Assembly: GCA_016214845.1 (NCBI GenBank) | Contig: JACRMS010000011.1 | Span: 1-63,082, forward strand | Reading direction: 5' to 3' | Origin: Nitrospirota bacterium | Lineage (GTDB): Bacteria; Nitrospirota; Thermodesulfovibrionia; UBA6902 | Length of the DNA stretch: 63,082 nt | Shown: piece by piece, positions 18,244 to 35,779 of the stretch | Layout: each line of letters starts with the position of its first letter | Numbering within the stretch: position 1 is the first letter of the stretch | Notes under the pieces: model-generated | Databases searched by the model: none | What the model was told of the DNA's origin: nothing | The model's input: the letters and a program-made list of their open reading frames with translations, nothing else | Program-made: the position numbers and the translations under genes

Positions 18244-18253
18244 ATATAAAACA

Positions 18254-18344: not shown

Positions 18345-18352
18345 TTTTCACC

Positions 18353-18552: not shown

Positions 18553-18643
18553 TTGACACGGCCGGTATTTCATGTTAAAAAAAACTTAATAAAAAGAAGT
18601 AACAAAAAATTCTCTTGACACGGTTGATACTCCGTGGTATAAG
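18553..18643 (+). promoter_or_regulatory. Strong sigma70-type promoter (with an upstream sister) before the riboswitch
   Basis: TTGACA (18615-18620), a 17-base spacer and TATAAG (18638-18643) give a near-consensus promoter with a start at about 18650, just before the riboswitch. The spacer region carries an inverted repeat CACGG-N8-CCGTG (18619-18636) that could be an operator. The nonamer TTGACACGG occurs also at 18553-18561, with TAAAAA 17 bases after its TTGACA, so a second, weaker promoter is possible. Confidence 0.65.
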
Positions 18644-18657
18644 AATTTTATTAATTC

Positions 18658-18768
18658 CCGAAAAGCCAAACCCTTTGCGAGAAGGGGACGGAAAGCACCG
18701 GGTCTTATGAATAGTCAGATAAGACAGCCGAGCTGCCGAAGAATAAACTTGGGCACGCTTGGCTTTTT
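18658..18768 (+). promoter_or_regulatory. c-di-GMP-I (GEMM) riboswitch with overlapping intrinsic terminator
   Basis: It keeps the GEMM-I core in order: CAAACC, a 6-bp hairpin CCCTTT/GAAGGG closed by a GCGA (GNRA) tetraloop (18671-18686), GGACGGAAAGCACCGGG, a second stem GTCTTAT/ATAAGAC (18702-18708 with 18719-18725), and AGCCGAGCTGCCGA. GCCGAGC-TGCC (18727-18737) can instead pair with GGCA (18752-18755) and GCTTGGC (18757-18763), followed by TTTTT, forming an intrinsic terminator. Aptamer and terminator share bases, so ligand binding should prevent termination (an ON switch). The first gene downstream is the wza-like gene at 19257. Discrimination between c-di-GMP and cGAMP cannot be decided by eye. 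Confidence 0.85.
18727..18768 (+). terminator. Intrinsic terminator alternative to the riboswitch aptamer
   Basis: An 11-bp stem (GCCGAGC plus TGCC against GGCA plus GCTTGGC, with one bulged C at 18756) is followed by TTTTT at 18764-18768. Its left arm is the conserved 3' part of the aptamer. Confidence 0.75.
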
Positions 18769-18990
18769 GCATTTATGTTATTCATTTTATTGAATGAATA
18801 ATTGCATCAAAAATTGTCTCATTCTAATTAAGCGTAAATAATTTCTGCTTTCCAGTAGTGGAAAGCAGAAACAGACTTTAATAACCGCATTGGTTACAAA
18901 AAACAATATGTAACTGAAAAGGCGGAGCAGTGCCTGATATATATTTTAAAACCATTCGGGAAAACAATTGATGATCTTATTTAATATGTA
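18769..18990 (+). other. Leader region with two perfect hairpins, no gene seen
   Basis: TTATTCATT (18778-18786) pairs with AATGAATAA (18793-18801). TTTCTGCTTTCCA (18842-18854) pairs with its exact complement (18859-18871) over a GTAG loop. Neither is followed by a T-run, so they are probably RNA structures or protein sites rather than terminators. An open stretch after 18862 (ending KPFGKTIDDLI) has no start codon and no family I know; it may be a remnant. Confidence 0.5.
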
Positions 18991-19003
18991 AGTATACAGG
19001 AAT

Positions 19004-19086: not shown

Positions 19087-19118
19087 TTTTGTTTAATAGC
19101 GCGGGTAAGATAAAAATA

Positions 19119-19193
19119 CAAAAAAACGCCCCTGCGTAGCAAGGGCGTAAGCCAGTAAATGATGAGGTCGGGAAACCAAACACTTAGAGGCTT
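19119..19193 (-). ncRNA. Candidate small RNA, tandem copy 1
   Basis: On the minus strand TTGACA (19228-19223), exactly 17 bases, then TTAAAT (19205-19200) predict a start near 19193. About 75 nt later stands a textbook intrinsic terminator: ACGCCCTTGC (19148-19139), loop TAC, GCAGGGGCGT (19135-19126) and a run of T (19126-19120). The RNA contains a C-rich unpaired segment (TTTCCCGACCTC), as in small RNAs that bind ribosome sites. It has no reading frame of note. It is antisense to the leader of the polysaccharide operon. Confidence 0.55.
19120..19148 (-). terminator. Minus-strand intrinsic terminator
   Basis: A 10-bp stem with one mismatch and a 3-nt loop is followed on the minus strand by a run of seven T. 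No protein gene to its right is transcribed on this strand for many kilobases, so it most likely ends a small RNA. Confidence 0.75.
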
Positions 19194-19256
19194 GTTTTTA
19201 TTTAAGCATGTTCATATGGAGATGTCAATATTCCTTAAAATATTCAGGAGTCTTAG

Positions 19257-20273
19257 ATGAAACGCAATAAAACATCTTTGTTATTGCCAAGCGTCGCTGC
19301 CGGATATTTCAACATACTCTTGATCCTTCTCTGCACTTTTTCATGCAGCAGCGTAGACACAATCAAACCGGGCACGGACTCTATTAACAATATGAAGGCC
19401 GCCTCCGAGAGTGAGAAAAGAAATACATTGATCCTGGAGCGGGCGATCAACGCATCCCGTCAGGAAGATTATATTCTTGGACCTGAAGACCTCGTTGAAA
19501 TCGATGTTTTTGAGGTGGATGAATTAAAACGGTCTGCCAGGATCAGTTCAACCGGCTTTATCAATTTGCCCCTTATCGGCAAGATAAACGCATCGGGTCT
19601 CTCTCTGTCTGAGCTTGAAACAGAGATCAGTAAAAGACTTCAGCAGTATCTTCAGGACCCGATAGTGAGCGTATTTATAAGGGAATACAGGAGCCAGAGG
19701 ATAACGGTTTTGGGCGCGGTAAAGAATCCGCAGGTACACAACGTGACCCGCCAGAAATTTTTACTTGATATGCTGTCTTATTCAGGCGGGCTTGCCGATG
19801 ATGCCGGAGATTTATGTTATGTGCAGAGGGGAGGCGGCACCGTCATCATAAGCCTGGATGAGCTATTGATTAAAGGCAACACAAAGCTGAACATACCGGT
19901 TTTTGCCGAGGACGTCATTCATGTCCCGAAAGGCGGGATCGTATTTGTAGATGGAGCGGTCATAAGCCCCGGCTCATTTGTTATAAAGGGAACGGTCACA
20001 TTGACGCAGGCAATTGCGATGGCCAAAGGTCTAAAGTACGAAGCATTGACAGGCCAGCTTAGAATCTATAGAAATTCCGGGACGGATGCAATGGAAACCA
20101 TAGATGTGGATTATGATGCGATCCTGGCGAATAAAGGCGCTGATTTCATTTTAAAAGACAAGGATGTCGTGATTGTGCCTCAAAGCGATGCCAAGGCATT
20201 CCTGAATGGTTTTGTTAAAACAGTCAGGGGCATGGTAACTTTCGGCGGCGCCTCTGTCGGGGCGGGACTGTAG
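19257..20273 (+). CDS. Wza-like polysaccharide export lipoprotein
   Basis: 338 residues. A signal peptide ends near a Cys (LLCTFSCSS), compatible with a lipoprotein although the lipobox is not canonical. The Poly_export domain begins at YILGPEDLVEIDVFEVDEL and continues through ISSTGFINLPLIGKINASGLSLSELE and DPIVSVFIREYRSQRITVLGAVKNP. Two SLBB-like segments follow (VHVPKGGIVFVDGAVISPGSF, VVIVPQSD). Such proteins form the outer-membrane exit for exopolysaccharide. CAGGAG lies 7 bases before the ATG. It is the first gene after the c-di-GMP riboswitch and is followed by its partner, a Wzc-like kinase. Confidence 0.9.
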   Translation: MKRNKTSLLLPSVAAGYFNILLILLCTFSCSSVDTIKPGTDSINNMKAASESEKRNTLILERAINASRQEDYILGPEDLVEIDVFEVDELKRSARISSTGFINLPLIGKINASGLSLSELETEISKRLQQYLQDPIVSVFIREYRSQRITVLGAVKNPQVHNVTRQKFLLDMLSYSGGLADDAGDLCYVQRGGGTVIISLDELLIKGNTKLNIPVFAEDVIHVPKGGIVFVDGAVISPGSFVIKGTVTLTQAIAMAKGLKYEALTGQLRIYRNSGTDAMETIDVDYDAILANKGADFILKDKDVVIVPQSDAKAFLNGFVKTVRGMVTFGGASVGAGL

Positions 20274-20318
20274 CGGAGGTGAGCTTGAATACTAAAAAAT
20301 TTTCCAAGGAGAAGCAGT

Positions 20319-22571
20319 ATGAGTAAATTAGATAGCAGTATTGAGAAGGCTTCCAGGCTGCGCTCTGATGCCGTGCAGGTAATAAGAAAAGAGCCTTTAC
20401 CAGCATCAGCATTTAAAATTCACTCAGAAGATGAAGAAGATCAATCCCATTTAAGAGACTATTTTAATATACTGCTGAAAAGAAAATGGATTGTGATGGC
20501 CTTCTTTATACCGGTCGTTGTAATTGCCGCGCTTGTATCATTCTTTTCGAAACCTTTATATAAATCATCAGCGACCATCCAGATCAAGGCGGAAAGCTCG
20601 AACCTGCTCACCTTTAAAGACATTTACGGCAAGGTGCCTGACCTGGAATATTATGAAACTCAATACAACATACTGAAGAGCCATGCCCTCGCGCAAAGGG
20701 TAGTGACAAGAATGGGGGAAGAGATAGAAAGGGAGGTCGAGCTTGCATCCGGAAATATCATTGATTCAGCATTGCAGCAGATAACAGGCGAGGGTGGGGA
20801 CAATCTGAAATGGGCCGACGCCGGGGCCAGGGACAGGGCATTAACGAATTACCTTGTCAGTAAAATAGAGGTGGACCCTATAAAGAAATCCCAGCTTGTG
20901 AATGTCAATTTCATATCATACGATCCGGTGCTGGGCGCCAATCTCGCCAATACAATGGCCGATGAATACATAAAGTTCACACTGGACAGTAAACTTGAGC
21001 CTACCCGGCAGGCAAAAAACAGGCTCGAACAAGAAGTTGAAGATATGAAAGTAAAGCTCGATAAATCTGAAGAGCAGCTCAACGAATACGTTAGAAGAAA
21101 CCGGATTTTCTTTTTCAATAAAGAACAGAACTACGAGAATATCCTGACACAGAAACTCTCAACACTTTCCAAAGAGCTTAATCAGGCGACAACCGAGAGG
21201 ATTTCCAGGGAAGCTCTTTATCAGGAAGTCGAAAAATCCGGGACCGATTACAGTTTTATCCTCCAGAACTCTCTCATACAATCTCTTACGATGGATTATA
21301 TAAAGCAGGAATCGGAATACGTTAATCTTTTAAAGATACACAAACCCGATTACCCGAAGATGCTCCGTCTCAAAGAGCAGATAGAAAAAATAAAGAGCAG
21401 CATCGAGGCGGAGGAACAGAAGCTTATCAACACTCTGGATTCTGATTATAAGATAGCAGTAAAGAAGGAAGGATATCTGGCGTCCGCAATAGAAGCGCTT
21501 CATAAGGACGTTAATACTTTCCAGGAAAAGATGGGACAGTTGCAGATATTAACGAGAGAAGTCGATACGAACAGAGATCTTCATAACTCTCTTTTACAAA
21601 GACTCAAGGAAGTAGGCATAAGCACAGCGCTCACTGAAAGCAATGTGCAGGTCCTTGACAGGGCGGAAATTCCCAAGGCCCCTTTCAAACCCAATAAAGC
21701 CTTTAACATGGCTTTGGCGCTGATGTTCGGATTGTCCGGCGGAGTTTTGCTCGCCTTCTTTGTCGAATATTTTGACCGCACCATAAGGACACCTGACGAT
21801 GTTGAAAAAAACTCCCCGGTCCGGGTAATAGGTATGGTGCCGATCTCCGGCCAAAAGACTGCAAAGCTTGTCTATGCTAACTCAAATAACAATGAGGCCT
21901 TTACAGAGGCTTTCAGGTCTCTAAGCACTTTTATCCAGTTTACAAATGTCTCCAGTCCGCCAAAGCAAATCCTTGTCACGAGCCCATTGCAGGGAGAAGG
22001 TAAAACCATTTTGGCAGTTAATGCCGCAATGAGCCTTGCAAATTTCCTCGGGAGGGGAGTTGTTATTGATGCCGACTTCAGGAGACCCAAGATCCACACC
22101 TTTTTTGATTTTGATAATTCCAAGGGGCTTTCATCATTTCTCACGGGGGACACGGAGCTTGAGGGATTGGCAAGAAAATCTACCCGTCCCGGACTCGATG
22201 TCATAACCAGCGGTCCGATGCCGCCAAATCCTTCCGAGCTTTTAAACTCTCTTCGCATGAGAGAGCTTGTTGAAGCGCTCTCCTCAAGCTATGACTACGT
22301 GATAATAGACTCCGCGCCGGTGCTGGGAATATCCGACAGCCTGATCCTTTCCGCCCTGGTCGAATCCGTAATATTGGTAGTTAAATCCAGCAACACGCCT
22401 GCTGATGCATTGACCCAGACATATAAGCTTTTGAACAACGTAAATGCAACGATACTCGGTGTTGTAGTAAACGGCGTTAATCCCAAGACGAAATACGGAT
22501 ACGCATATTATCAAAGCCCTTATGGAGACGCAGCAAAGCGCGCCGGTAAATCTGTCGGAAAACAAACATGA
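20319..22571 (+). CDS. Wzc-like chain-length determinant with tyrosine autokinase domain
   Basis: 750 residues. Wzz domain with two membrane segments (around residues 55-75, KRKWIVMAFFIPVVVIAALV, and about 465-485, ALALMFGLSGGVLLAFFVEYF) enclosing a long periplasmic coiled coil. The C-terminal BY-kinase has Walker A SPLQGEGKT (about 555-563), Walker A' VVIDADFRRP and Walker B YVIIDSAPV, and ends in a tyrosine-rich tail (YGYAYYQSPYGD) of the kind that is autophosphorylated. It controls polymer length and export with the Wza-like protein. AAGGAG lies before the ATG. All kinase motifs are intact. Confidence 0.93.
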   Translation: MSKLDSSIEKASRLRSDAVQVIRKEPLPASAFKIHSEDEEDQSHLRDYFNILLKRKWIVMAFFIPVVVIAALVSFFSKPLYKSSATIQIKAESSNLLTFKDIYGKVPDLEYYETQYNILKSHALAQRVVTRMGEEIEREVELASGNIIDSALQQITGEGGDNLKWADAGARDRALTNYLVSKIEVDPIKKSQLVNVNFISYDPVLGANLANTMADEYIKFTLDSKLEPTRQAKNRLEQEVEDMKVKLDKSEEQLNEYVRRNRIFFFNKEQNYENILTQKLSTLSKELNQATTERISREALYQEVEKSGTDYSFILQNSLIQSLTMDYIKQESEYVNLLKIHKPDYPKMLRLKEQIEKIKSSIEAEEQKLINTLDSDYKIAVKKEGYLASAIEALHKDVNTFQEKMGQLQILTREVDTNRDLHNSLLQRLKEVGISTALTESNVQVLDRAEIPKAPFKPNKAFNMALALMFGLSGGVLLAFFVEYFDRTIRTPDDVEKNSPVRVIGMVPISGQKTAKLVYANSNNNEAFTEAFRSLSTFIQFTNVSSPPKQILVTSPLQGEGKTILAVNAAMSLANFLGRGVVIDADFRRPKIHTFFDFDNSKGLSSFLTGDTELEGLARKSTRPGLDVITSGPMPPNPSELLNSLRMRELVEALSSSYDYVIIDSAPVLGISDSLILSALVESVILVVKSSNTPADALTQTYKLLNNVNATILGVVVNGVNPKTKYGYAYYQSPYGDAAKRAGKSVGKQT

Positions 22572-22639
22572 ATATAAAAAGTCTGCCCCAATAATATCTG
22601 TGATAATACCACTGTCAAAAAACATCACGCAGAAGGGCT

Positions 22640-22800
22640 TATGAAAAATTATTTTTGCAAGCTTGCAGTCTCCTGCGCCCGCAAAACAGCATCCCTGATA
22701 AAGGATGCTTCAGAAAGACATGAAGTAACCCGCCAATTCGTAAGCTGTGTTTAAGAAACTTTTCTTGAACACAGATTAGTCAGAAAACATTTTGAGATAT
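22640..22800 (+). other. Intergenic hairpins between wzc-like and wbpB-wbpD genes
   Basis: Two hairpins can be seen in the 275-base gap: AGCATCC/GGATGCT (about 22688-22709, 7 bp) and CTGTGTTTAAGA/TCTTGAACACAG (about 22743-22772, 11 of 12 plus a G-U). No T-run follows either one. No gene is evident. Confidence 0.45.
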
Positions 22801-22846
22801 TTCGCAAGCTGAAATCAGCCCCGCAGGCTGAGCAAGGGGGATTACA

Positions 22847-24433
22847 ATGGAAAACCATGGGAAATTTATTGGCCTTATCGGCCTTGGTTACTGGGGGAAA
22901 AATATCCTCCGTAATCTCTGCGAAATAGGGGCCCTTCACACAGCATGTGACTCCGAGCCGCTGATACTTTCAGAACGGCAGGAAAGGTTCCGGGATATAA
23001 ACTTTACAACGTCCCTTGACGATGTTTTAAATGAGCCTGACATAAAGGCCGTCGCAATCGCCACTCCTGCCGCGACTCACTATGATCTTGTCAAACAAGC
23101 GCTGCTGAAAGGAAAGGATGTCTTTGTTGAAAAACCGCTTGCTTTGAGCGTCAACGAAGGTGAAGACCTTGTGGCGTTAGCCAAAAAAGAAAACAGGGTC
23201 TTGATGGTCGGGCATATACTGCAATATCATCCGGCGGTCAAAAAACTAAAAGAACTTATAGACTCCGGCGAACTCGGCAAGATCCAGTATATTTATTCGA
23301 ACCGCCTTAATATCGGCAAGCTCAGGACTGAGGAAAACATACTCTGGAGTTTCGCGCCCCATGATATTTCGGTGATCCTTATGCTTCTCGGCGAGGAACC
23401 GGTAAAGGTGTCCGCCTTTGGAGGGGACTATCTGAATAGCGGAGTTTATGACACTACACTCACGACTCTGGAGTTTAAAAATGAGATCAAGAGCCATATC
23501 TTTGTCAGCTGGCTTCATCCGTATAAAGAGCAGAGGCTGATCTTTGTCGGTTCAAAGGCAATGGCGGTCTTTGACGACGTGAGCGAAGAAAAACTGTTTG
23601 TCTATCCCCATAAGATAGAGTGGAAGAACGGCAAGATCCCGGTTGCTCATAAGGCTGACTATGATGTTGTGCCGGTAGAAAAAGGCGAACCCTTAAAGCA
23701 GGAGTTAGAGCATTTCGCGGATTGTGTACTTTGGAGGAAGAGGCCGGTAACAGACGGCGTTGAGGGCCTGAAGGTATTAAAAATTCTTGATGCGGCACAG
23801 AAGGGGCTTACAAGAGGAAAAGATGCAAAAACTGAATCCAGGACCCGGAATTATCACCTGCATGAAAGCGCCTATATCGACGCTGACACCAGTATAGACG
23901 AGGGGACCAGGATATGGCATTTCTCGCATGTGCTGAAAGGGTCCCGAATAGGGAAGAACTGCATCATCGGGCAGAATGTCACCGTGGGGCCTGACGCGGT
24001 AATCGGCGACAGGTGCAAGATTCAGAACAATGTGTCGGTATATAAAGGCGTAATACTTGAAGACGAAGTTTTTTGCGGTCCCTCATGCGTATTCACAAAC
24101 GTTTATAACCCCCGGGCCTTCATTGAGAGAAAGCACGAGTTCAGGCAGACGCTTGTTAAAAAAGGCGCGACCCTCGGGGCCAATTCAACTATCGTGTGCG
24201 GGGTGAAGATCGGAGAATACTCCATGATAGGCGCGGGCGCAGTCGTAAAGACCGACGTGCCGGACCACGCCATTGTAGCAGGCGTCCCTGCCAGGCAGAT
24301 TGGATGGACGTGCAGGTGCGGCACGACTTTAAGATTCAATGATAAACAAGGCATCTGTGCTGACTGTGATAATGAGTACATGCTGGACAATGATCATCTC
24401 ATAACAATCAAAGAAAGGGTGCTAAGCAAATGA
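22847..24433 (+). CDS. Fused Gfo/Idh/MocA dehydrogenase and left-handed beta-helix acetyltransferase (WbpB-WbpD type)
   Basis: 528 residues. Residues 1 to about 325 form a Gfo/Idh/MocA oxidoreductase (IGLIGLGYWGKNILRN for NAD+, VFVEKPLAL as the EKP motif). Residues about 335-490 are hexapeptide repeats (IDEGTRIWHFSHV, IGKNCIIGQNVTVGPDAVIGD, IGAGAVVKTDVPDHAIVAGVPAR), as in WbpD-type N-acetyltransferases. The tail carries a CxC...CxxC pair, a possible zinc ribbon. In Pseudomonas, WbpB oxidises UDP-GlcNAcA at C3, WbpE transaminates and WbpD acetylates, giving a 2,3-diacetamido uronic acid. The next gene is a WbpE-like aminotransferase, so the whole sequence fits. Specificity is inferred. Confidence 0.88.
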   Translation: MENHGKFIGLIGLGYWGKNILRNLCEIGALHTACDSEPLILSERQERFRDINFTTSLDDVLNEPDIKAVAIATPAATHYDLVKQALLKGKDVFVEKPLALSVNEGEDLVALAKKENRVLMVGHILQYHPAVKKLKELIDSGELGKIQYIYSNRLNIGKLRTEENILWSFAPHDISVILMLLGEEPVKVSAFGGDYLNSGVYDTTLTTLEFKNEIKSHIFVSWLHPYKEQRLIFVGSKAMAVFDDVSEEKLFVYPHKIEWKNGKIPVAHKADYDVVPVEKGEPLKQELEHFADCVLWRKRPVTDGVEGLKVLKILDAAQKGLTRGKDAKTESRTRNYHLHESAYIDADTSIDEGTRIWHFSHVLKGSRIGKNCIIGQNVTVGPDAVIGDRCKIQNNVSVYKGVILEDEVFCGPSCVFTNVYNPRAFIERKHEFRQTLVKKGATLGANSTIVCGVKIGEYSMIGAGAVVKTDVPDHAIVAGVPARQIGWTCRCGTTLRFNDKQGICADCDNEYMLDNDHLITIKERVLSK

Positions 24434-25602
24434 AACAGATACCAATGCTTGATCTAAAGGGCGAATACGAATATATGAAGGCTGATATAGATTCAGCCAT
24501 TAAACGGTGCCTTGAACACCAGAAGTGGGTCCTCGGCCCTGAGGTAAAGGAACTGGAGGAGACGATAGCTGGCTACGTGAATGTGAAACACTGTGTAGGG
24601 ATATCTTCCGGGACCGATGCCCTGGTCCTTTCACTCAGGGCGCTTGCGATAAAAATAAAAGGCAAAGAGTATTGGGACAGGAATGATCTGATAATAACAA
24701 CACCCTTTACTTTTACGGCTACAGGAGACGCGATACTCCGCGCCGGGGCGACTCCTGTATTTGTCGATATCGACCCTGTCACATACAACATCGATACAGA
24801 CAGGATACTTGAATGTGTCTCATCATCAAAGGGAGAAAATTTTGTAGGCATATTGCCGGTGCATCTTTACGGCCGGGGCTGCGACATGGACAGGTTAATG
24901 GATATCGCAAGAGAATATGATCTCTTTGTCGTGGAAGACGTGGCACAGGCCTTCGGCGGAAGCCATGAGGGCAGGAAACTCGGCTCCATCGGCGCTGCGG
25001 GAATTTTCAGTTTTTTCCCTTCAAAAAATCTCGGCGGGTTTGGCGACGGAGGGATGGTTTCTACAAACGATGATGAGATAGCGGGACTGGTCCGCATGTT
25101 GTTGAAGCATGGCGGAAAAGACAAATACAACGTTGATTATGTCGGCTACAACGCGAGACTCGACACGCTTCAGGCAGCCGTGCTCCTGTCAAAGATCAAA
25201 TACCTGGACGAGTTCAACAGGCGCCGGAGAAACATCGCGGAGATATATACCAGCTCTCTCACAGGCCTTGCAGGATTAATCTTACCGGGCAATAAAGCAG
25301 GGCATGTTTACCATCAATACACAGTGCGTGCATCGAGGCGTATGGAACTACAGGCATATCTCAAGGGAATGGGCATATCCACGATGATATATTATCCGTT
25401 CCCGCTGCACAGGATGAAGGTGTTTGAAGGCAGAATGAATATCCCGGGAGCATTGACCAATGCTGAAAGGGCGGCTGAAGAGGTGTTCTCACTCCCGATA
25501 GGGCCTTTGCAGAAAGATGAAGACACAAAATATGTGATTGATGCGATCAAACGGTTTGTAGAGATCAACCAGGAAAACCACAATATAGTCTCAGTTTATT
25601 AA
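24430..25602 (+). CDS. DegT/DnrJ/EryC1-family sugar aminotransferase (WbpE-like)
   Basis: 390 residues. PLP enzyme with CVGISSGTDALVLSLRAL, VEDVAQAFGGSHEGRKLGSIG and the aldimine lysine K199 in FFPSKNLGGFGDGGM. Family members transfer an amino group from glutamate to a keto sugar nucleotide. It overlaps the fused WbpB-WbpD gene by 4 bases (ATGA), so the substrate is probably the 3-keto uronic acid made by that enzyme. Its length is slightly above the usual 360-380, with an insertion KGKEYWDRND near residue 75. Confidence 0.9.
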   Translation: MKQIPMLDLKGEYEYMKADIDSAIKRCLEHQKWVLGPEVKELEETIAGYVNVKHCVGISSGTDALVLSLRALAIKIKGKEYWDRNDLIITTPFTFTATGDAILRAGATPVFVDIDPVTYNIDTDRILECVSSSKGENFVGILPVHLYGRGCDMDRLMDIAREYDLFVVEDVAQAFGGSHEGRKLGSIGAAGIFSFFPSKNLGGFGDGGMVSTNDDEIAGLVRMLLKHGGKDKYNVDYVGYNARLDTLQAAVLLSKIKYLDEFNRRRRNIAEIYTSSLTGLAGLILPGNKAGHVYHQYTVRASRRMELQAYLKGMGISTMIYYPFPLHRMKVFEGRMNIPGALTNAERAAEEVFSLPIGPLQKDEDTKYVIDAIKRFVEINQENHNIVSVY

Positions 25603-25687
25603 TTTACCGGAAATGGTTTCCTGCTGGGCAGGAATGACACCAGCCGGTCACTCCCATAAAAACGGGAATAAGGAAGGCAGGGCAGGC

Positions 25688-27775
25688 ATGAAGAGTATTG
25701 CAAGCAATACACTCCAGTTCTTAAGAGACTTCATCATCAGCAACAGGCGCGTCATTGTCATCATCGTTCATCTTGCACAAGCCGCACTGGCAAATTACCT
25801 GGCATTTTTTATCAGGTTCGATACAGTCATCCCGCATGAGTATTTCAATATGCTGGTGTATTATCTCCCCGCCCTGTTGGCGATACGCCTTGTTTTTTAT
25901 ATTCAGGCGGGCCTCTATAAAGACATCTGGAAGTATTCAAGCATACGCGACATGGTCAAGATCATAAAATCCGTGACCGTCGGGAGCCTCTTGTTCTATA
26001 TTGCAATCAGGTATTTGATCGGCAATACATCATATCCTCAGTCCATATATATACTTGACGGGTTGCTGCTCATAATTATTTCAAGCGGCAGCCGGCTTTT
26101 CATACGGGTATTCAAGGAATATCTGCACTCCCAGCATCTGGGAAAAAGAATACTTATCGTCGGCGCGGGAGATGCCGGAGTGAAAATTTTCAGGGATATA
26201 AAAAATAATCCTAAATCATACTATGAGCCCATAGGTTTTATTGATGACGATCCTTACAAGAAAGGGCTCGTGATTCACGGTGTCCCGATCTTCGGCCCGA
26301 TCAGCATGATCCCCTATATTATTGAGACAAACAAGCCGGATGAAATTTTAATCACTATTTCCTCAAACAATAACGACAACATCAGGAAGATATATGAATT
26401 ATGCAAGTCATACAACGTCCTGATCAAAAAGCTGCCGGGTATAAACGATATACTCGAAGGCAATATCGCCATGGCTGTAAAACTCGGGCAGCAGCTGGTC
26501 GAAGCCAATATAGTAACGGAAGATAAAGTGCAGCAGGCCCTTGAACTGCAAAAAAAGGAAGGCGGAAGGCTTGGCTCAAAGCTTATTAAACTCGGTCATA
26601 TTTCTGAAGAGAACCTTGTGTCGTTCCTCAATAAGCATCTCGGCATTTCACATATAAAACCGATCTCGCTCGAAGACCTCCTGCAGAGAGAACCGGTAAG
26701 ACATGATATTGAATCCGTGAGGAACTTCATCAAAGGCAAATCCGTGCTGGTGACCGGCGCGGGAGGCTCTATCGGGTCGGAGCTTTGCAGGCAGATAACA
26801 AAGTATCATCCGGCAAGCCTTGTCCTGATGGACAGATACGAAAACACCCTGTTCAGTATTGACCATGAGTTGAGGTGTAATGATGGAAACGGCAACGGGA
26901 AATCCCAGTGCAATATTGTGGCGGCAATCGGAGATATTGTTGACCCGGTGACACTGGAATATATATTTTCAAAGCATAAACCACAGATCGTTTTCCACGC
27001 GGCCGCCCACAAGCATGTGCCGCTTATGGAATATAATCCGATTGAGGCTGTAAAGAACAATATACTTGGCACCAGGAACCTCCTTGATGCCGCATCGAGA
27101 CATTACGCGGAGAGTTTCGTGATGATATCAACGGACAAGGCCATAAACCCAACCAGCATTATGGGGGCCACAAAACGCGTGGCCGAGTTATTGACCCTGA
27201 ACAAAAAATCCGCTTCAGGCACGAAATTTACCACTGTCAGGTTCGGAAATGTCCTCGGAAGCAACGGAAGCGTGGTCCCTATCTTCAAGGAACAGCTAAA
27301 GAAAGGCGGCCCGATAACCGTGACACATCCCGATATGAAGAGGTTTTTTATGCTCATCCCTGAAGCAGTCCAGCTTGTTCTGCTGGCAGCTTCATCAGGA
27401 AACGGCGGTGAGATATTTGTACTTGATATGGGACACCAGATTAAGATAAACGACCTTGCTGAAAGCATCATAAGACTTTCAGGTTTTATTCCTCACAAGG
27501 AGATCAAGATAATGTACACCGGTCTGAGGCCCGGTGAAAAGCTGTATGAAGAACTTTTTGACGTATCTGAAAAAATAATTCCCACTTTCCATAAAAAACT
27601 CAGGATAGCCGTACCCGGTCCCCTGCCCATTGAAAACCTCAATGAATATATTTCAGAATTTGAGGGCATTGTTTCCAATTATGCTGTTGACAGCATAATT
27701 CCCGCCATCCAAAAAGTTGTGCCGAATTATGGCAATGGCAACATGTCATATGCCGAGCATCATATAGGGGTGTAA
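25688..27775 (+). CDS. FlaA1/WbpM-like membrane sugar 4,6-dehydratase with inserted MshEN-type c-di-GMP module
   Basis: 695 residues from the ATG at 25688; an ATG at 25613 would add 25 untypical residues. Four membrane segments lie within the first 150 residues, then a Rossmann domain (KRILIVGAGDAGVKIFRDI). Residues 265-288 and 294-317 are two similar 24-residue motifs (KLGQQLVEANIVTEDKV... and RLGSKLIKLGHISEENL...) joined by KKEGG, the layout of MshEN domains that bind c-di-GMP. The SDR part follows (VLVTGAGGSIGSELCRQI, ISTDKAINPTSIMGATKR) with the Ser-Met-Lys triad of WbpM/FlaA1. The dehydratase acts on UDP-GlcNAc-like substrates. I do not know of the insert as a usual part of this family. 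Confidence 0.88.
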   Translation: MKSIASNTLQFLRDFIISNRRVIVIIVHLAQAALANYLAFFIRFDTVIPHEYFNMLVYYLPALLAIRLVFYIQAGLYKDIWKYSSIRDMVKIIKSVTVGSLLFYIAIRYLIGNTSYPQSIYILDGLLLIIISSGSRLFIRVFKEYLHSQHLGKRILIVGAGDAGVKIFRDIKNNPKSYYEPIGFIDDDPYKKGLVIHGVPIFGPISMIPYIIETNKPDEILITISSNNNDNIRKIYELCKSYNVLIKKLPGINDILEGNIAMAVKLGQQLVEANIVTEDKVQQALELQKKEGGRLGSKLIKLGHISEENLVSFLNKHLGISHIKPISLEDLLQREPVRHDIESVRNFIKGKSVLVTGAGGSIGSELCRQITKYHPASLVLMDRYENTLFSIDHELRCNDGNGNGKSQCNIVAAIGDIVDPVTLEYIFSKHKPQIVFHAAAHKHVPLMEYNPIEAVKNNILGTRNLLDAASRHYAESFVMISTDKAINPTSIMGATKRVAELLTLNKKSASGTKFTTVRFGNVLGSNGSVVPIFKEQLKKGGPITVTHPDMKRFFMLIPEAVQLVLLAASSGNGGEIFVLDMGHQIKINDLAESIIRLSGFIPHKEIKIMYTGLRPGEKLYEELFDVSEKIIPTFHKKLRIAVPGPLPIENLNEYISEFEGIVSNYAVDSIIPAIQKVVPNYGNGNMSYAEHHIGV

Positions 27776-27863
27776 TTACTACACCGTCTTGATATTCGTT
27801 GTTTGCAGCAGTTCTTGTTCGTGAAAGCATAAGCACACTCTTGTCATAAAAAGGGGGAGTGAA

Positions 27864-28031
27864 ATGTACTGGATAGTAATAATAATTGCTTTTGTCGTTG
27901 GAGGCTTCATTGGGATTGCAGTCATGTCCGCCCTGTTCGTTTCAAGAAGGGAGGAAGACAAGATGAACGGCGGTCCAGCGTCTTTTGCAAGGAAGGAAAT
28001 GCAAGAGAAGATCAGGGAGAATATTATTTAA
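27864..28031 (+). CDS. Small single-span membrane protein
   Basis: 55 residues. AAGGGGGAGTG lies just before the ATG. Residues 1-25 (MYWIVIIIAFVVGGFIGIAVMSALF) form one membrane helix, followed by SRREEDK and a charged tail. It recalls small DUF3789-like proteins, but I cannot place it with certainty. It sits alone between the dehydratase gene and rfbF, in the same direction. Confidence 0.6.
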   Translation: MYWIVIIIAFVVGGFIGIAVMSALFVSRREEDKMNGGPASFARKEMQEKIRENII

Positions 28032-28061
28032 GATGCATGTGTTCTTACAAAAGGAGGGAAT

Positions 28062-28835
28062 ATGAAAGCCGTAATACTCGCTGGAGGCTTTGGCACGCGC
28101 CTAACTGAAGAAACCGTTATGAGACCCAAGCCAATGGTAGAGATCGGCGGTAAACCGATCCTCTGGCACATTATGAAAATCTATTCCGCATACGGTATCA
28201 ATGACTTCATTATCTGCTGCGGTTATAAAGGATACATGATCAAGGAATACTTTTCGAAATATTTTATTTACACATCCGATGTCACCTTTGATCTGAAGAA
28301 CAACAATATAAGCGTCCACAAGAACGGCGTGGAGCCCTGGAAAGTCACGTTGGTAGATACCGGTGAAAATACAATGACCGGCGGAAGGCTCAAAAGGGTC
28401 AGGGACTATATCGGCGGGGAGACCTTCTGCTTTACCTATGGAGACGGCGTGAGTGACGTCAATATTGAAAAGTTGATCGATTTCCACAAATCCCGGAAGA
28501 CGTCGGCCACTCTGACGGCGGTCCAGCCGCCGGGAAGATTCGGCATCATAAACATCAATGAGGACCAGGACAAGATAATAAGCTTTAAAGAAAAACCCGC
28601 AGGTGACGGCACATGGATAAATGCCGGGTTCTTTGTGCTTGAACCCGAGGTGTTTGATTATATATCCGGCGACTCGACCGTGTGGGAGCAGGAACCGATG
28701 CAGAGTCTCGCGCGTAAAGGGACATTATCCGCATTTAAATATTCCGGCTTCTGGCACGCGATGGACACCCTGCGGGACAGGAACGTCCTTGAAGAACTAT
28801 GGAACTCGGGGAAAGCGCCCTGGAAGGTCTGGTAG
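28062..28835 (+). CDS. rfbF: Glucose-1-phosphate cytidylyltransferase
   Basis: 257 residues, normal length. MKAVILAGGFGTRLTEETVM followed by RPKPMVEIGGKPILWHIMKIYS is diagnostic for RfbF, as are CCGYKGYMIKEYF and TYGDGVSDVNI. It makes CDP-glucose from CTP and glucose-1-phosphate, the first step to CDP-3,6-dideoxyhexoses and related sugars. AAGGAGGGAAT precedes the ATG. It heads a run of sugar-nucleotide genes on the same strand. The next enzyme of the standard route, CDP-glucose 4,6-dehydratase (RfbG), is not in the window. Confidence 0.94.
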   Translation: MKAVILAGGFGTRLTEETVMRPKPMVEIGGKPILWHIMKIYSAYGINDFIICCGYKGYMIKEYFSKYFIYTSDVTFDLKNNNISVHKNGVEPWKVTLVDTGENTMTGGRLKRVRDYIGGETFCFTYGDGVSDVNIEKLIDFHKSRKTSATLTAVQPPGRFGIININEDQDKIISFKEKPAGDGTWINAGFFVLEPEVFDYISGDSTVWEQEPMQSLARKGTLSAFKYSGFWHAMDTLRDRNVLEELWNSGKAPWKVW

Positions 28836-28839
28836 CAGA

Positions 28840-30039
28840 ATGATAACTTCTGATTTTCTTGTTGTCGGGGGCGGGATAATAGGGATCAATATTGCGAGAG
28901 AGTTGAAAAGGCAGTTTTCAGATTCGAAAATTGTCCTTATTGAAAAAGAGCAGGAATGCGGGCTGCACGCAAGCGGGCGAAACAGCGGCGTGCTTCACGC
29001 GGGCTTTTATTACTCTCCTGACAGCCTCAAGGCAAAATTCACAAGGCTCGGCAATAAGATGATGACGCAATACTGTGAATCAAGGAACCTCAGTATAAAT
29101 AAAAACGGCAAACTCGTTGTTGCAAAGGGTCCCGAAGACCTCCCATTTCTCGACAAGCTGTTGAAAAGGGGCAGAGACAACGGCGTGCAATTAGAGGACA
29201 TTACAGAGGATGAAGCTGTGAGAATAGAGCCGAGGGTGAAGACCTTCGGGAGGGCCATCTTTTCACCTTCAACATCGACCGTTGACCCGAACGCGGTCAT
29301 GCGTGCGATGAAACTTGACGCAATAAAAGAAGGAGTGGAGGTCCATTCCGGCGTCTGTTTCACAAAGAAAAAGGGCAGGGACATTGTGACATCCGCCGGC
29401 ATATTCCAGACAGGTTACCTGGTAAACTGCGCCGGTCTTTACGCTGATGAAATCGCCATGGAATTCGGCTTCTCGGAAAGATACCGCATCCTTCCGTTTA
29501 AAGGGCTGTACTTATATTCCGGGGAGCCGGCAGGTTCGCTGCGCACAAATATTTATCCGGTCCCGGACCTGCGGAACCCGTTTTTAGGGGTCCATTTCAC
29601 TGCTACGGTTGACGGGAAAATTAAAATAGGCCCTACGGCCATACCCGCGTTCTGGCGTGAGCAATACAGTTTTTTTAAGAATTTCAACTTTTCAGAGTTC
29701 CTTGAGATCCTGGGGAGGGAAGCGGGACTTTTTATATTTTCCGGTTTTGATTTCAGGATACTCGCGTTTGAGGAAGTAAAAAAGTATTCGCGCAAGCGCA
29801 TGGTGGCGCTGGCTGCACAGCTTGTAAAAGAAATCAAAACGGAAAACTACAGGAGCTGGGGCAAGCCCGGCATACGCGCGCAGTTATTGGACATAAAAAG
29901 GAAAAAACTTGAAATGGATTTTGTCATCGAGGGTGATGACAGGTCCATGCACGTATTAAATGCCGTGTCCCCCGCGTTCACCTGCTCCATCCCGTTTTCG
30001 CAATACGTCTGCGGGGAAATACAGTCACGGTTGAATTGA
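28840..30039 (+). CDS. FAD-dependent oxidoreductase of the L-2-hydroxyglutarate oxidase type
   Basis: 399 residues. It starts four bases after rfbF. FAD-binding FLVVGGGIIGINIARELKRQ is followed by ECGLHASGRNSGVLHAGFYYSP, the LhgO signature, and INCAG-like LVNCAGLYADEIA. The C-terminal motif SPAFTCSIPFSQYV resembles SPGFTxSxAIA. LhgO oxidises L-2-hydroxyglutarate to 2-oxoglutarate. Within a sugar cluster the substrate may be a hydroxy acid or sugar alcohol instead. The enzyme looks complete. Confidence 0.82.
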   Translation: MITSDFLVVGGGIIGINIARELKRQFSDSKIVLIEKEQECGLHASGRNSGVLHAGFYYSPDSLKAKFTRLGNKMMTQYCESRNLSINKNGKLVVAKGPEDLPFLDKLLKRGRDNGVQLEDITEDEAVRIEPRVKTFGRAIFSPSTSTVDPNAVMRAMKLDAIKEGVEVHSGVCFTKKKGRDIVTSAGIFQTGYLVNCAGLYADEIAMEFGFSERYRILPFKGLYLYSGEPAGSLRTNIYPVPDLRNPFLGVHFTATVDGKIKIGPTAIPAFWREQYSFFKNFNFSEFLEILGREAGLFIFSGFDFRILAFEEVKKYSRKRMVALAAQLVKEIKTENYRSWGKPGIRAQLLDIKRKKLEMDFVIEGDDRSMHVLNAVSPAFTCSIPFSQYVCGEIQSRLN

Positions 30040-30046
30040 ATGTTAT

Positions 30047-30224
30047 CAATGGCTGAAATGAAAGCCTGTTACAGAATTTCTATAATCGACATGATTTTTA
30101 AATTTATGTTTAATGCCATTCAAGATATTTTCTTGACCCTATGCTCTTTGCTCCATGCCCCTGGTTTTTTTCAAGAGGTGTCGTATAGAAATTCTTCCAC
30201 AGCCTTCCATTTCAGCGGCCATTG
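30047..30224. repeat. 178-bp element with long imperfect terminal inverted repeats (MITE-like)
   Basis: The arms 30053-30084 and 30184-30215 match at 27 of 32 positions as inverted repeats, including a perfect GAATTTCTATA/TATAGAAATTC core. An outer CAATGG/CCATTG pair (30047-30052, 30219-30224) extends them. A smaller hairpin TCAAGA/TCTTGA lies inside. No coding sequence is evident. It fills the gap between the FAD enzyme and the SDR gene. No clear target-site duplication was seen. Confidence 0.65.
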
Positions 30225-30262
30225 GAACGTGGTCATGAATAATGCTGCTTAAAGGAGAAGAA

Positions 30263-31315
30263 ATGAAGATATTGATTACCGGAAACATGGGTTACATCGG
30301 GCCGTGCGTAGTGCAGCGGTTGAGGGCTTCTTGTCCCGGCGCTGTATTGGCGGGACTGGACACGGGATATTTTGCGAGCTGCCTGACAAACGCGGAAATA
30401 CTCCCCGAGTGCAGGGTTGATATGCAGTATTTCGCGGACGTGCGAAAACTTCAAATGGACATACTTAAAGACGTGGACGCAATAGTGCACCTCGCGGCAA
30501 TATCAAACGACCCGATGGGCAATACTTTTGAAAAGGTGACCCATGACATCAATTATCTTGCAAGCATCAGCCTTGCAGAGAAAGCGAAAGAAGCCGGGGT
30601 AAAAAGTTTTGTGTACGCGTCAAGCTGCAGCATGTACGGCGCAGCGGATGACGGGCCGCGCACCGAAAGGTCTGCGCTTAATCCGCTTACCGCGTACGCG
30701 AGATCAAAGGTCGCAACTGAAAGGGACCTTGAAAATCTGGCGGACAATAAATTTAAAGTAACTTCACTAAGGTTCTCCACAGCGTGCGGCTTTAGCGAGC
30801 GGTTAAGGCTGGACCTGGTGCTGAATGACTTTGTCGCGTGCGCAGTCTCTACAAAGAAGATCACCATCTTAAGCGACGGAACGCCGTGGAGGCCGCTAAT
30901 AAATATAAAGGACATGGCAAAGGCGATAGACTGGGCGGTAAGCAGGGACCCGCGCAACGGCGGAGACTTTCTTGCCGTCAATGTCGGCAGCGATGAATGG
31001 AACTTTCAGGTCAAGGAACTTGCGGAGGCTGTTGCGGCTGTAATTCCGGGTGTGGATGTTTCAATTAACAAGGATGCGCAGCCGGACAAGCGTTCTTACA
31101 GGGTGAACTTTGAACTGTTCAGAAAACTGGCCCCGGACCATCAGCCCGTAGTTGATATAAAGACAACGGTCAGGGAATTAAAAGAGGGCCTTGAGGCAAT
31201 GCACTTCAGTAACGGTAATTTCCGCAACTCGAACTTTATGAGACTGAAGGCGCTCAATCACTTAAGAGAGCGGGGGTTATTGACGGAGGACCTTGAATGG
31301 GCAACGAACGGGTGA
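30263..31315 (+). CDS. NAD-dependent epimerase/dehydratase (extended SDR)
   Basis: 350 residues from the ATG at 30263, with AAAGGAG upstream. ILITGNMGYIGPCVVQRL binds the nucleotide, VHLAAISNDPMG and YASSCSMYG follow, and YARSK is the catalytic pair. Extended SDRs of this branch are found with rfbF and class III aminotransferases in deoxysugar clusters. It may do the 4,6-dehydratase, epimerase or 4-reductase step on a CDP- or other NDP-sugar; the sequence alone does not decide. It overlaps the next gene by 19 bases. Confidence 0.82.
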   Translation: MKILITGNMGYIGPCVVQRLRASCPGAVLAGLDTGYFASCLTNAEILPECRVDMQYFADVRKLQMDILKDVDAIVHLAAISNDPMGNTFEKVTHDINYLASISLAEKAKEAGVKSFVYASSCSMYGAADDGPRTERSALNPLTAYARSKVATERDLENLADNKFKVTSLRFSTACGFSERLRLDLVLNDFVACAVSTKKITILSDGTPWRPLINIKDMAKAIDWAVSRDPRNGGDFLAVNVGSDEWNFQVKELAEAVAAVIPGVDVSINKDAQPDKRSYRVNFELFRKLAPDHQPVVDIKTTVRELKEGLEAMHFSNGNFRNSNFMRLKALNHLRERGLLTEDLEWATNG

Positions 31316-32634
31316 AAGAGATAATCATGGATTTTTCAAAATCCGGCGCACTCAAGAAGAAGTTTCATGAGATCATCCCCGGCGGTGCGCATACTTATGC
31401 CAAAGGGGACGATCAGTTCCCGGAATTCGCGCTGCCGTACATTGTCAGAGGCGAGGGCTGTCATGTGTGGGACGCGGACGGAAATGAATTTATAGAATAC
31501 GGCATGGGGCTCCGCGCCGTCACGCTGGGACACGCGTACAAGACGGTTGTAGATGCCGCGTGCCGGCAGATGCTGCTTGGCAGTAATTTTAACAGGCCGT
31601 CGGTGATCGAGCTTGAGTGCGCGGAGGAATTGTTAAGCCTGATCGAAGGGGCCGAGATGGTGAAGTTCGGCAAGAACGGATCGGACGTCACAAGCGCGGC
31701 GATAAAACTTTCGCGGGCCTATACGGGCAGGGATATTGCCGCGATCTGCGGGGACCATCCTTTTTTCTCCGCAGACGACTGGTTTATCGGGACCACGCCG
31801 ATGTCTTCAGGTATTCCAAAGGCCGTACAGGACTTGACGGTCAAGTTTAAATATAACGACATCGAAAGCGTTAAAACACTTTTTCAGCAGCATCACGGCA
31901 AGATCGCCTGTTTAATTATGGAGCCTGAAAAGGACAAGGAACCGGTAAATAATTTCCTTCATGAAGTGCAGAAGATCTGCAGAGAGAACGGGACCGTTTT
32001 TGTTCTGGATGAAATGATCACAGGGTTCCGCTGGAACAACGGAGGGGGACAGGGCTATTACAATATAACCCCGGACCTGTCAGCCTTTGGCAAAGCCATG
32101 GGCAACGGCTTTTCCGTGTCGGCATTGGCAGGCAAGAGAGAGTTGATGCAGTTAGGCGGGCTTAGCCATAACAGGGAACGTGTCTTCCTGCTTTCTTTAA
32201 CGCATGGCGCGGAGACCCATTCTCTGGCAGCCGCCCTTGAGACAATGAGGATATATATACGGGAACCGGTCGTAGATTTCCTCTGGCTTCAGGGTGAGAG
32301 GCTCTCGAAAGGGATCAACAGGGCCATTGATGAACACAGGCTTAACGGTTTTTTCGAGATCATTGGAAAACCCTGCTGTCTTGTATATGCAACGCGTGAT
32401 AAAGATATGAAGCCTTCTCAGGCCTTCAGGACATTGCTCCTGCACGAAACAATGAAACGCGGCATCATGGCCACCAGTCTTGTCGTCAGCTACTCTCACA
32501 CCGATGCCGATATTGACAGGACAATAGATGCCTTTTACGAAGTTTTATACATCTACCGCAAGGCGCTGGATGAAGGCATAGATAAATATTTCACGGGAAG
32601 GCCTGTAAAACCGGTGTGGCGCAGGCACAATTAG
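31297..32634 (+). CDS. Class III aminotransferase of the glutamate-1-semialdehyde aminomutase type
   Basis: 445 residues. IIPGGAHTYAKGDDQFPEFALPYIVRGEGCHVWDADGNEFIEYGMG is typical for the GSA-aminomutase branch. FVLDEMITGFRW binds PLP, and K266 in SAFGKAMGNGFS is the likely aldimine lysine. The location inside a CDP-sugar cluster suggests a role in sugar or side-chain amination, not in heme synthesis. GGAGG before the ATG at 31297 supports that start; the ATG at 31327 is an alternative. Confidence 0.83.
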   Translation: MGNERVKEIIMDFSKSGALKKKFHEIIPGGAHTYAKGDDQFPEFALPYIVRGEGCHVWDADGNEFIEYGMGLRAVTLGHAYKTVVDAACRQMLLGSNFNRPSVIELECAEELLSLIEGAEMVKFGKNGSDVTSAAIKLSRAYTGRDIAAICGDHPFFSADDWFIGTTPMSSGIPKAVQDLTVKFKYNDIESVKTLFQQHHGKIACLIMEPEKDKEPVNNFLHEVQKICRENGTVFVLDEMITGFRWNNGGGQGYYNITPDLSAFGKAMGNGFSVSALAGKRELMQLGGLSHNRERVFLLSLTHGAETHSLAAALETMRIYIREPVVDFLWLQGERLSKGINRAIDEHRLNGFFEIIGKPCCLVYATRDKDMKPSQAFRTLLLHETMKRGIMATSLVVSYSHTDADIDRTIDAFYEVLYIYRKALDEGIDKYFTGRPVKPVWRRHN

Positions 32635-32708
32635 CGGTGGTCTATAACTTCTGCCATTTCATTGAAGTCAGTGAATCCGAAATGCCGACCAACAAAAAGG
32701 AGTCCACT

Positions 32709-33944
32709 ATGAACAATAACTACTCATGCCGGTTTTGCGGCAACGAGCTGAGATATACCTTTGTAGATTTGGGCATGTCGCCGCTTGCCAATTCATATCT
32801 GAGGCCGGAACAGCTTCAGCAGGCAGAGGCTTTTTATCCCCTGCACACATATGTCTGCGAGAAATGCTGTCTGGTCCAATTGCCGGAGATGCAGTCACCG
32901 GAAAATATCTTCAGTGATTATGCTTACTTCTCTTCTTATTCGGAATCATGGCTGAGACACGCAAAGGACTATACAGATCTGATGATAGACAAATTCGGAT
33001 TTGACGGTGAAAGCCGTGTCATTGAGATCGCCAGCAATGACGGGTATCTGCTTCAATACTTCAAACAACGCGGAGTGCCGGTGTTAGGGATAGAGCCCGC
33101 TAAGAACGTCGCAAAAGCGGCGCAGGATGCCGGGATACCGACCCTTGTAAAATTCTTTGGCACGCAGACGGCCGCGGAATTGGCGGCAGAGGGCAAATAC
33201 GCGGACCTCCTGATAGGCAATAATGTATTGGCGCATGTGCCGGGCCTCAATGATTTTGTCAAAGGCATGAAGATCATCCTGAAGCCGCGCGGGACCATCA
33301 CGATGGAGTTCCCGCATTTAATGCGGCTGATGGAAGAGAACCAGTTTGATACTATCTACCATGAACATTATTCATACTTTTCTTTAATAGCAGTAAATAA
33401 AATATTCGCGGCGCACGGTCTGAAAATATTCGACGTGAAAGAACTGCCGACCCACGGCGGCTCCCTGAGGATATTTGCCTGTCACAAAGGGGATGATTCA
33501 CGGCCTGAAGACCAAAGCGTAAGCGATCTCATCAGCAAGGAAGATGATTACGGTTTGACCGTGCTGGAACACTACCTGTCGTTCGGCGAAAAAGTAAAGG
33601 CGACCAAGAGAAATATCCTGAATTTCATGATCAATGATAAAAGCCGGGGAAAATCTTTTGCGGGTTACGGCGCGCCCGCAAAGGGCAACACACTTCTGAA
33701 TTATTGCGGCATCAGGTCTGACTTCATAGACTTTACAGTTGACCGGAGTCCGCACAAGCAGGGGCATTTCCTGCCTGGCGTCCACATCCCGATCTGCGGG
33801 CCTGAGAAGATAAATGAAATAAGGCCGGATTACCTGGTCATCCTCCCGTGGAACCTGAAAGACGAGATCATGAAGCAGATGTCCCACATTCGCGAATGGG
33901 GCGGACAGTTCGTGGTGCTGATCCCTGAAGTAGAGGTTTTTTAG
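32709..33944 (+). CDS. Sugar C-methyltransferase (zinc-binding, SAM-dependent)
   Basis: 411 residues from the ATG at 32709, with AAGGAG upstream. The N-terminal zinc site has CRFCG and CEKCCLVQL. The SAM domain has VIEIASNDGYLLQYFKQRGV and LGIEPAKN. The C-terminal C-methyltransferase domain contains FAGYGAPAKGNTLLNYCGI. This three-part layout (Methyltransf_13, Methyltransf_23 type, C-methyltransferase C-terminal) is that of TylC3/EvaC enzymes, which methylate C3 of a 4-keto sugar to give a branched deoxysugar. It fits the neighbouring epimerase and cytidylyltransferase genes. Confidence 0.88.
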   Translation: MNNNYSCRFCGNELRYTFVDLGMSPLANSYLRPEQLQQAEAFYPLHTYVCEKCCLVQLPEMQSPENIFSDYAYFSSYSESWLRHAKDYTDLMIDKFGFDGESRVIEIASNDGYLLQYFKQRGVPVLGIEPAKNVAKAAQDAGIPTLVKFFGTQTAAELAAEGKYADLLIGNNVLAHVPGLNDFVKGMKIILKPRGTITMEFPHLMRLMEENQFDTIYHEHYSYFSLIAVNKIFAAHGLKIFDVKELPTHGGSLRIFACHKGDDSRPEDQSVSDLISKEDDYGLTVLEHYLSFGEKVKATKRNILNFMINDKSRGKSFAGYGAPAKGNTLLNYCGIRSDFIDFTVDRSPHKQGHFLPGVHIPICGPEKINEIRPDYLVILPWNLKDEIMKQMSHIREWGGQFVVLIPEVEVF

Positions 33945-33948
33945 CAGA

Positions 33949-34494
33949 ATGATCTTCACGGAAACAAAATTAAAGGGTGCCTTTATCATTGAGCCGGAAA
34001 GGTTAAATGATGAACGTGGTTTTTTCGCAAGGACCTGGTGCAGGCGGGAATTTGAGGCACAGGGTTTAACCCCCGATCTTGTGCAGTGCAGTGTATCTTT
34101 CAACAATAAAAAATGGACCTTGAGAGGTATGCATTATCAGGCTGTGCCGCGCGGAGAGGCCAGGCTGATAAGATGCACCCACGGCGCTGTTTGTGATGTA
34201 ATCATTGACCTCCGGCAAGAGTCTGAGACATATAAGAAATGGTTTTCCGTAGATCTGACAGCCGCAAACAGGAAAATGCTTTATGTCCCTAAAGGTTTTG
34301 CCCACGGCTTTCTCACACTTGAAGACGACAGCGAAGTTTTATATCAGATGTCGGAATATTACTGTCCCGAATCTGCAAGGGGAGTGAGATGGGATGACCC
34401 GGCGTTTTCCATCCAGTGGCCCTTTGATGTGAGGGTAATATCGGACAGGGACCGGGCTTATCCGGATTTTTGTTCTTTAGCTTTAATATGCTGA
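33949..34494 (+). CDS. dTDP-4-dehydrorhamnose 3,5-epimerase-like protein
   Basis: 181 residues. RfbC-type cupin: LKGAFIIEPERLNDERGFFARTW, CSVSFNNKKWTLRGMHYQ with the catalytic His, EARLIRCTHGAVCDVIIDLR, and VPKGFAHGFLTLEDDSEVLYQMSEYY. It epimerises a 4-keto-6-deoxy sugar nucleotide. With rfbF upstream, the carrier may be CDP rather than dTDP. It overlaps the next gene by 7 bases. Confidence 0.9.
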   Translation: MIFTETKLKGAFIIEPERLNDERGFFARTWCRREFEAQGLTPDLVQCSVSFNNKKWTLRGMHYQAVPRGEARLIRCTHGAVCDVIIDLRQESETYKKWFSVDLTAANRKMLYVPKGFAHGFLTLEDDSEVLYQMSEYYCPESARGVRWDDPAFSIQWPFDVRVISDRDRAYPDFCSLALIC

Positions 34495-35777: not shown

Positions 35778-35779
35778 TC

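Follow-up and report, generated by a model that had tools for sequence, protein, structure and literature searches.

We analysed a window of 63,082 nt, the whole stretch of contig JACRMS010000011.1 from a Nitrospirota genome, in which a row of polysaccharide genes on one strand encodes a Wza-type export protein, a Wzc-type protein, a Gfo/Idh-hexapeptide protein, a DegT-type aminotransferase, a nucleotide-sugar dehydratase, an RfbF-like nucleotidyltransferase, more sugar genes, ABC export and glycosyltransferases. The row is headed by a predicted c-di-GMP-I riboswitch, which precedes wza by 515 nt and the dehydratase gene by ~7 kb, and the dehydratase itself carries a small insert between its N-terminal Rossmann domain and its catalytic short-chain dehydrogenase/reductase (SDR) domain (Table 1). 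Further along the polysaccharide region, positions 44743-55344 (+) encode a protein of 3533 aa that has an alkaline phosphatase domain at its N-terminus as well as bacterial Ig-like domains.

Table 1. Coordinates of the features discussed, in positions of the window
Feature	Position	Strand	Evidence
Promoter-like TTGACA-17-TATAAG just ahead of the riboswitch	18615..18643	+	Read from sequence
c-di-GMP-I riboswitch aptamer (RF03167, c-di-GMP-I-GGC)	18656..18741	+	66.7 bits (gathering 59), E 4e-14; RF01051 64.6 bits (gathering 35)
Predicted intrinsic terminator hairpin (18726-18764) and U run, overlapping the 3' part of the aptamer	18726..18769	+	Fold z -5.3, -24 kcal/mol
Wza-type polysaccharide export protein (Poly_export, SLBB)	19257..20273	+	Pfam
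Wzc-type chain length/ATPase protein (Wzz, GNVR, AAA_31)	20319..22571	+	Pfam
Gfo/Idh dehydrogenase fused to hexapeptide acyltransferase	22847..24433	+	Pfam, NCBIfam
DegT-type sugar aminotransferase	24430..25602	+	Pfam, 358 bits
695-aa WbpM/PglF-type UDP-GlcNAc 4,6-dehydratase with MshEN_N insert	25688..27775	+	PF02719 384 bits; PglF 5bju E 2.4e-84; fold match 5bjw E 4.5e-31
Predicted helices at the N-terminus, read as a membrane anchor (residues 20-145)	25745..26125	+	Model shows long hydrophobic helices; WbpM is known to have a membrane anchor (PMC8987622)
CoA_binding_3/Rossmann domain (residues 81-246)	25928..26425	+	PF13727, 47 bits
MshEN motif I, KLGQQLVEANIVTEDKVQQALELQ (residues 265-288)	26480..26551	+	NF053729
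Five-residue spacer KKEGG (residues 289-293)	26552..26566	+	Sequence; KKEGG also in a PilB-type ATPase of this genome
MshEN motif II, RLGSKLIKLGHISEENLVSFLNKH (residues 294-317)	26567..26638	+	NF053729
Linker from insert to catalytic domain (GISHIKPISLEDLLQREPV...)	26639..26743	+	Residues 318-346 83% pairwise identical, above either motif and the SDR domain
Catalytic SDR domain with T482-D483-K484, M492 and K496	26744..27607	+	PF02719 (Polysacc_synt_2), matched over residues 353-640; PglF alignment

The dehydratase and its insert

The dehydratase lies in an open reading frame spanning 25613-27775 (+), within which the start at 25688 is the most plausible because alignments of orthologues begin at about residue 2; the coding part thus runs from 25688 to 27772 and specifies 695 aa. 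Among solved structures, PglF of Campylobacter jejuni is the closest; both the sequence and the structural model align to it, and the TDK...Mx3K signature is present at the aligned residues. Since a published table assigns these residues to the WbpM/PglF class (PMC8987622), we place the enzyme there and not with the short FlaA1 type: of the earlier FlaA1/WbpM-type assignment, the WbpM half stands and the short inverting FlaA1 class drops out. Judged by its sequence, the enzyme is a membrane-anchored WbpM/PglF-type UDP-GlcNAc 4,6-dehydratase, predicted to dehydrate UDP-GlcNAc. It shares with the retaining dehydratases of this class the membrane anchor and the Rossmann domain, both N-terminal to the SDR domain, together with the signature and the PglF fold, and it differs from them in the insert: plain relatives pass from GxVS straight to an ISQIKP linker. 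A plain WbpM-type dehydratase without the insert is also encoded in the same genome (G000:C8:28577-30292).

The preliminary description had read the insert as an MshEN-like module of two 24-residue motifs joined by five residues, at positions 26480-26638. Both the position and the layout are exact, as the start at 25688 places codon 265 at 26480 and the end of codon 317 at 26638, with residues 265-288, 289-293 and 294-317 forming a 24-5-24 arrangement. The NCBIfam model NF053729 (c-di-GMP_motif; 'c-di-GMP-binding domain-containing protein, MshE-related') matches the full protein with 56.1 bits (E 2.3e-15, profile positions 1-52 of 53) and the excised stretch with 60.9 bits, at a curated cut-off of 38 bits. 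Searches of PDB chains with phmmer return Thermus thermophilus PilF (E 6.7e-15) and MshE (5htl, E 1.4e-9). These profile scores rule out a chance match; in a shuffle test, none of 20,000 shuffled sequences matched a loosened 24-5-24 regular expression, a pattern that the real motif II also fails, at H304.

Structure prediction, one of the checks proposed at the outset, points to the same domain. Modelled alone, the insert forms four helices (pLDDT 80), and its best structural match in the PDB is c-di-GMP-bound MshE (5htl_B), with a deviation of 0.9 Å over 54 columns at 50% identity. The Foldseek E-value of 7.7e-3 (probability 1.00) is only modest, which we attribute to the shortness of the query.

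The profile check suggested together with it fared differently. PF05157 gives no match at E <= 1 in a Pfam scan of the full 695-aa protein. In the pilus-type ATPases of the same genome, the PF05157 match begins at the end of the NF053729 match to the 53-aa motif; the Pfam model therefore describes MshEN_C, a subdomain absent from the dehydratase, and the proposed test was mis-aimed. Since the full MshEN domain as modelled by PF05157 is not found, we class the insert as MshEN_N only, i.e., as an MshEN_N-type domain by profile and predicted fold, corresponding to the c-di-GMP-binding half without MshEN_C. With MshEN_N of MshE (PDB 5HTL; NF053729) it shares the tandem motif, the predicted fold of four helices, the two glycines and the leucines of motif II, whereas the dehydratase has neither MshEN_C nor an ATPase, carries the module internally and not terminally, and deviates at K265, N274, H304 and H317. 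The claim of an MshEN_N-type module between the Rossmann and SDR domains is thus borne out by the profile, the predicted fold, the site of insertion and the conservation of ligand residues across the family.

Ligand positions and predicted c-di-GMP binding

Four residues that correspond to contact positions of MshE, G267, G296, L310 and L314, do not vary among the 24 family members compared; Q288 is present in 23 of them, and position 317 is Q in 17 and H in 3. Ligand positions have an entropy of 0.57 compared with 1.64 for the non-core rest, lower than random motif positions (p 0.0002). Their conservation is not clearly higher than that of core positions (p 0.08), and part of it may therefore be a folding constraint. 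Over its whole length, the insert is as conserved across the family as the SDR domain (74% pairwise each).

Set against the ligand pattern RLG...LxxxLxxQ of the two motifs, the copy in the window retains the two glycines, the two leucines of motif II and Gln288. Through N274, H304 and H317, neither of its halves fits the relaxed motif as published (PMC5013675), to which six other members of the family conform in each half. K265, N274 and H317 had been listed at the outset as deviations that might alter affinity. All three are real, and the list missed H304, at motif II position 11, which is normally L, V or I. The consequences drawn from them hold in part. Lysine at the first position of motif I is no weakness, since GSPII-B of PilF also begins with K and binds c-di-GMP with a KD of 6 nM, and its K167R variant binds 25-fold more weakly (PMC11731258). 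H317 is a real concern because histidine occupies the matching terminal Gln position of motif I in PilF GSPII-A, which, with other changes besides, is non-binding (PMC12002112). The GSPII-A, B and C domains of T. thermophilus PilF are among the closest known systems and belong to a pilus ATPase.

In a rival reading, the insert keeps the MshEN_N fold and has lost useful c-di-GMP binding in the window copy, as in PilF GSPII-A and XpsE, and now serves as a structural spacer or a protein-protein contact. The three deviations, the failure of both motifs and the GSPII-A precedent argue for it, as do relatives with poorer motifs than the window copy, e.g., one (L069) whose spacer has three residues and in which R and D each replace a Q. 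The retained glycines, leucines and Gln288 and the conservation of ligand positions across the family speak against it, and the motif II variant Q218E of GSPII-B still binds at 460 nM (PMC11731258). We consider loss of binding unlikely, at odds of about one in four. MshEN_N of MshE, taken by itself, has an affinity for c-di-GMP of 0.35 uM (PMC5013675). Because the window copy fails the relaxed motif twice and six relatives pass it, binding is more probable for the family than for this copy: the fused family is likely to bind c-di-GMP, and for the window's own copy, which is among the weaker ones, the chance of binding is about even to moderately good.

The ligand might instead be 3',3'-cGAMP or another nucleotide, as MshE binds cGAMP weakly and some GEMM-I riboswitches sense it (PMC6274999). 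The affinity of MshE for cGAMP is far below that for c-di-GMP (PMC5013675), and the genome holds 22 GGDEF matches, which makes this identity of the ligand very improbable.

Distribution and origin of the fusion

The preliminary description had proposed a search for other proteins that pair MshEN with Polysacc_synt_2, and such proteins exist. A scan of one genome per species across 84,980 species returned 23 fused loci, all in Nitrospirota except two in Planctomycetota MAGs of anammox bacteria, one Scalindua and one Anammoxibacter. By shared contigs, the window falls into one family with a Thermodesulfovibrionia MAG. When genomes of the class were searched with a profile, 30 of 230 carried the fusion, which was cleanly separated from ATPases: fusions scored 102 bits or more across the full profile, ATPases at most 93 bits over the insert alone. 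A seemingly partial match in Bacteroides (L092) proved to be a plain dehydratase without the insert, and a search of viral contigs returned no relative. An assembly or frame artefact joining a piece of a pilus ATPase to a dehydratase, suggested by the unusual architecture and the draft state of the genome, is refuted by this recurrence of the same fusion at the same site in independent assemblies, in the class as in the planctomycete MAGs.

The site of insertion is fixed: plain relatives read '...GKVS-ISQIKPLSFEELLQREPV', and in fused ones the domain lies between the GNxx and GISHxKP segments. In a tree of the SDR region, built without the insert, all fused rows fall on one side of a single branch (83/95; 84% of bootstrap trees) and both planctomycete copies are nested inside the fused clade: the fusion goes back to one insertion. 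The planctomycete copies are likely to be explained by later transfer. Among four MshEN domains of the genome that we compared with the insert, the closest is that of a PilB-type ATPase, identical at 33 of 53 residues and sharing the K, the N at position 10 and KKEGG; by this likeness, a PilB-type pilus ATPase of the same lineage is the most likely donor.

At two related loci (L057 and L070), a DegT-type open reading frame and a separate Bac_transf initiating sugar-phosphate transferase lie ahead of the dehydratase, with the transferase directly upstream; at L061, DegT precedes the fused gene. At L061 and L070, an UpxY antiterminator stands ahead of DegT and an NtrC-type regulator follows the dehydratase. 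In the subclade L061-L066, the open reading frames reach 909-939 aa, and their extra N-terminal part is an initiating sugar-phosphate transferase (L061 and L064 were scanned, and L066 reads alike; e.g., L064:2522-5323). From these neighbours and this transferase fusion, the dehydratase most likely supplies the priming sugar.

The riboswitch and proposed control of precursor supply

We searched window positions 18000-36000 for riboswitches and detected the aptamer, whose 3' part is overlapped by a strong hairpin with a U run, a predicted terminator. Ligand binding would be expected to prevent termination, and we therefore predict an ON switch. The promoter-like element just ahead was omitted by a consensus promoter scan because position 6 of its second hexamer is G. 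Between the riboswitch and wza, two identical 24-nt copies of GAGGTCGGGAAACCAAACACTTAG (19056-19079 and 19164-19187, +), each followed by a T-rich stretch, have no further copy in the genome within 3 mismatches. An aptamer heading a gene row with a competing terminator is the arrangement of c-di-GMP-I (GEMM-I) riboswitches, from which the window differs in that the RNA would work alongside a protein sensor encoded in the same row.

A riboswitch ahead of fused genes in general is rejected. On contigs with a fused gene, a position upstream of it was seen only in the window, in G009, where a matching arrangement of riboswitch and hairpin precedes the fused-gene cluster (73.2 bits), and in G008, where the match is below the cut-off. 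This small number of genomes counts against the full explanation given below. The search returned no riboswitch at 19 fused loci, each taken with at most 4 kb of flanking sequence; on the fused-gene contig of G127 riboswitches lie downstream of the gene, and in G158 some 57 kb away. Within the window, the riboswitch was detected independently of the protein motif and, as annotated, points to the same messenger.

Our best full explanation is that an MshEN_N domain derived from a PilB-type ATPase was inserted once into the hinge of the dehydratase, where it lets c-di-GMP gate the first committed step of glycan synthesis; we assign it a probability of roughly 0.55. The analysis establishes the identity, site, conservation and single origin of the domain, the sugar-pathway setting and the homology of the riboswitch. 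The ligand would bind both motifs of the four-helix bundle, and the signal would pass from the bundle to the catalytic domain via the strongly conserved GIS(H)xKPISLEDLLQREPV segment. High c-di-GMP would most probably lead to more 4-keto-6-deoxy-GlcNAc nucleotide, activation and not inhibition being expected by analogy with NfrB (PMC8669469). As the product of the dehydratase would feed a DegT aminotransferase and an initiating sugar-phosphate transferase, control at this enzyme would be control of the first committed step of a surface glycan. In the window, c-di-GMP probably turns on transcription too, via the riboswitch, and a single transcript would extend from there to the dehydratase.

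Catalysis need not depend on the hinge, because the catalytic half of WbpM is active without the N-terminal region (PMC8987622). A serious rival follows from this, in which the domain binds c-di-GMP without acting on catalysis and controls membrane recruitment or assembly with the initiating transferase, the aminotransferase or export proteins. The fusion of the dehydratase to the transferase in the L061-L066 subclade and the adjacency of the two elsewhere fit recruitment; on the other side, the strongly conserved EDLLQRE segment ties the insert to the catalytic half, and its anchor side (256-261) is of low confidence and probably flexible. On balance, control by recruitment without an effect on catalysis seems rather unlikely.

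Gating of catalysis, combined with the riboswitch, would amount to control at two levels in one operon, where an RNA switches the row on and c-di-GMP gates the enzyme of the first step, and related bacteria would unite the sensor, the sugar-making enzyme and the transferase that loads the lipid carrier in one polypeptide. We offer this combined scheme tentatively, as a possibility somewhat short of even. c-di-GMP is known to act on polysaccharides through polymerases, glycosyltransferases, export and transcription. If the proposed gating is true, control of a nucleotide-sugar dehydratase would shift the point of control to the supply of precursor, ahead of any commitment of the lipid carrier, and one signal may control the surface coat twice, through riboswitch and enzyme insert.

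The precedent is NfrB of E. coli, a c-di-GMP-activated GT2 protein in which a C-terminal MshEN controls an EPS glycosyltransferase (PMC8669469). Both systems would place surface polysaccharide synthesis under MshEN control; NfrB acts at polymerisation, whereas the target in the window is nucleotide-sugar synthesis and the module is internal. MshEN fusions are already known in ATPases, a glycosyltransferase, REC, HD-GYP, CheA, CheX, cyclases and kinases (PMC5013675, PMC8669469), and in the main texts of the open-licence literature we found no description of MshEN in a nucleotide-sugar dehydratase. A direct test is possible with the purified domain, point variants and natural relatives whose motifs are better or worse, and the riboswitch provides an independent read-out of the same messenger.

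Further MshEN-like sequences occur in the same genome: a 706-aa protein that by eye resembles a CheA kinase, with an MshEN motif in its middle (G000:C38; L047:289-2406, -), a 128-aa protein consisting of several MshEN half motifs and little else (G000:C18; L043:1300-1683, -), and two proteins of a single region (G000:C33; L004/L005/L045) in which PF05157 matches are followed by repeated 'RTxLAxxRTGLAFxRTG' stretches that look DUF202-like by eye. The N-terminus of the NCBIfam model TIGR03029 (EpsG tyrosine kinase) matches window positions 26480-26638 (E 1.3e-5), which hints at MshEN-like motifs in another exopolysaccharide family.
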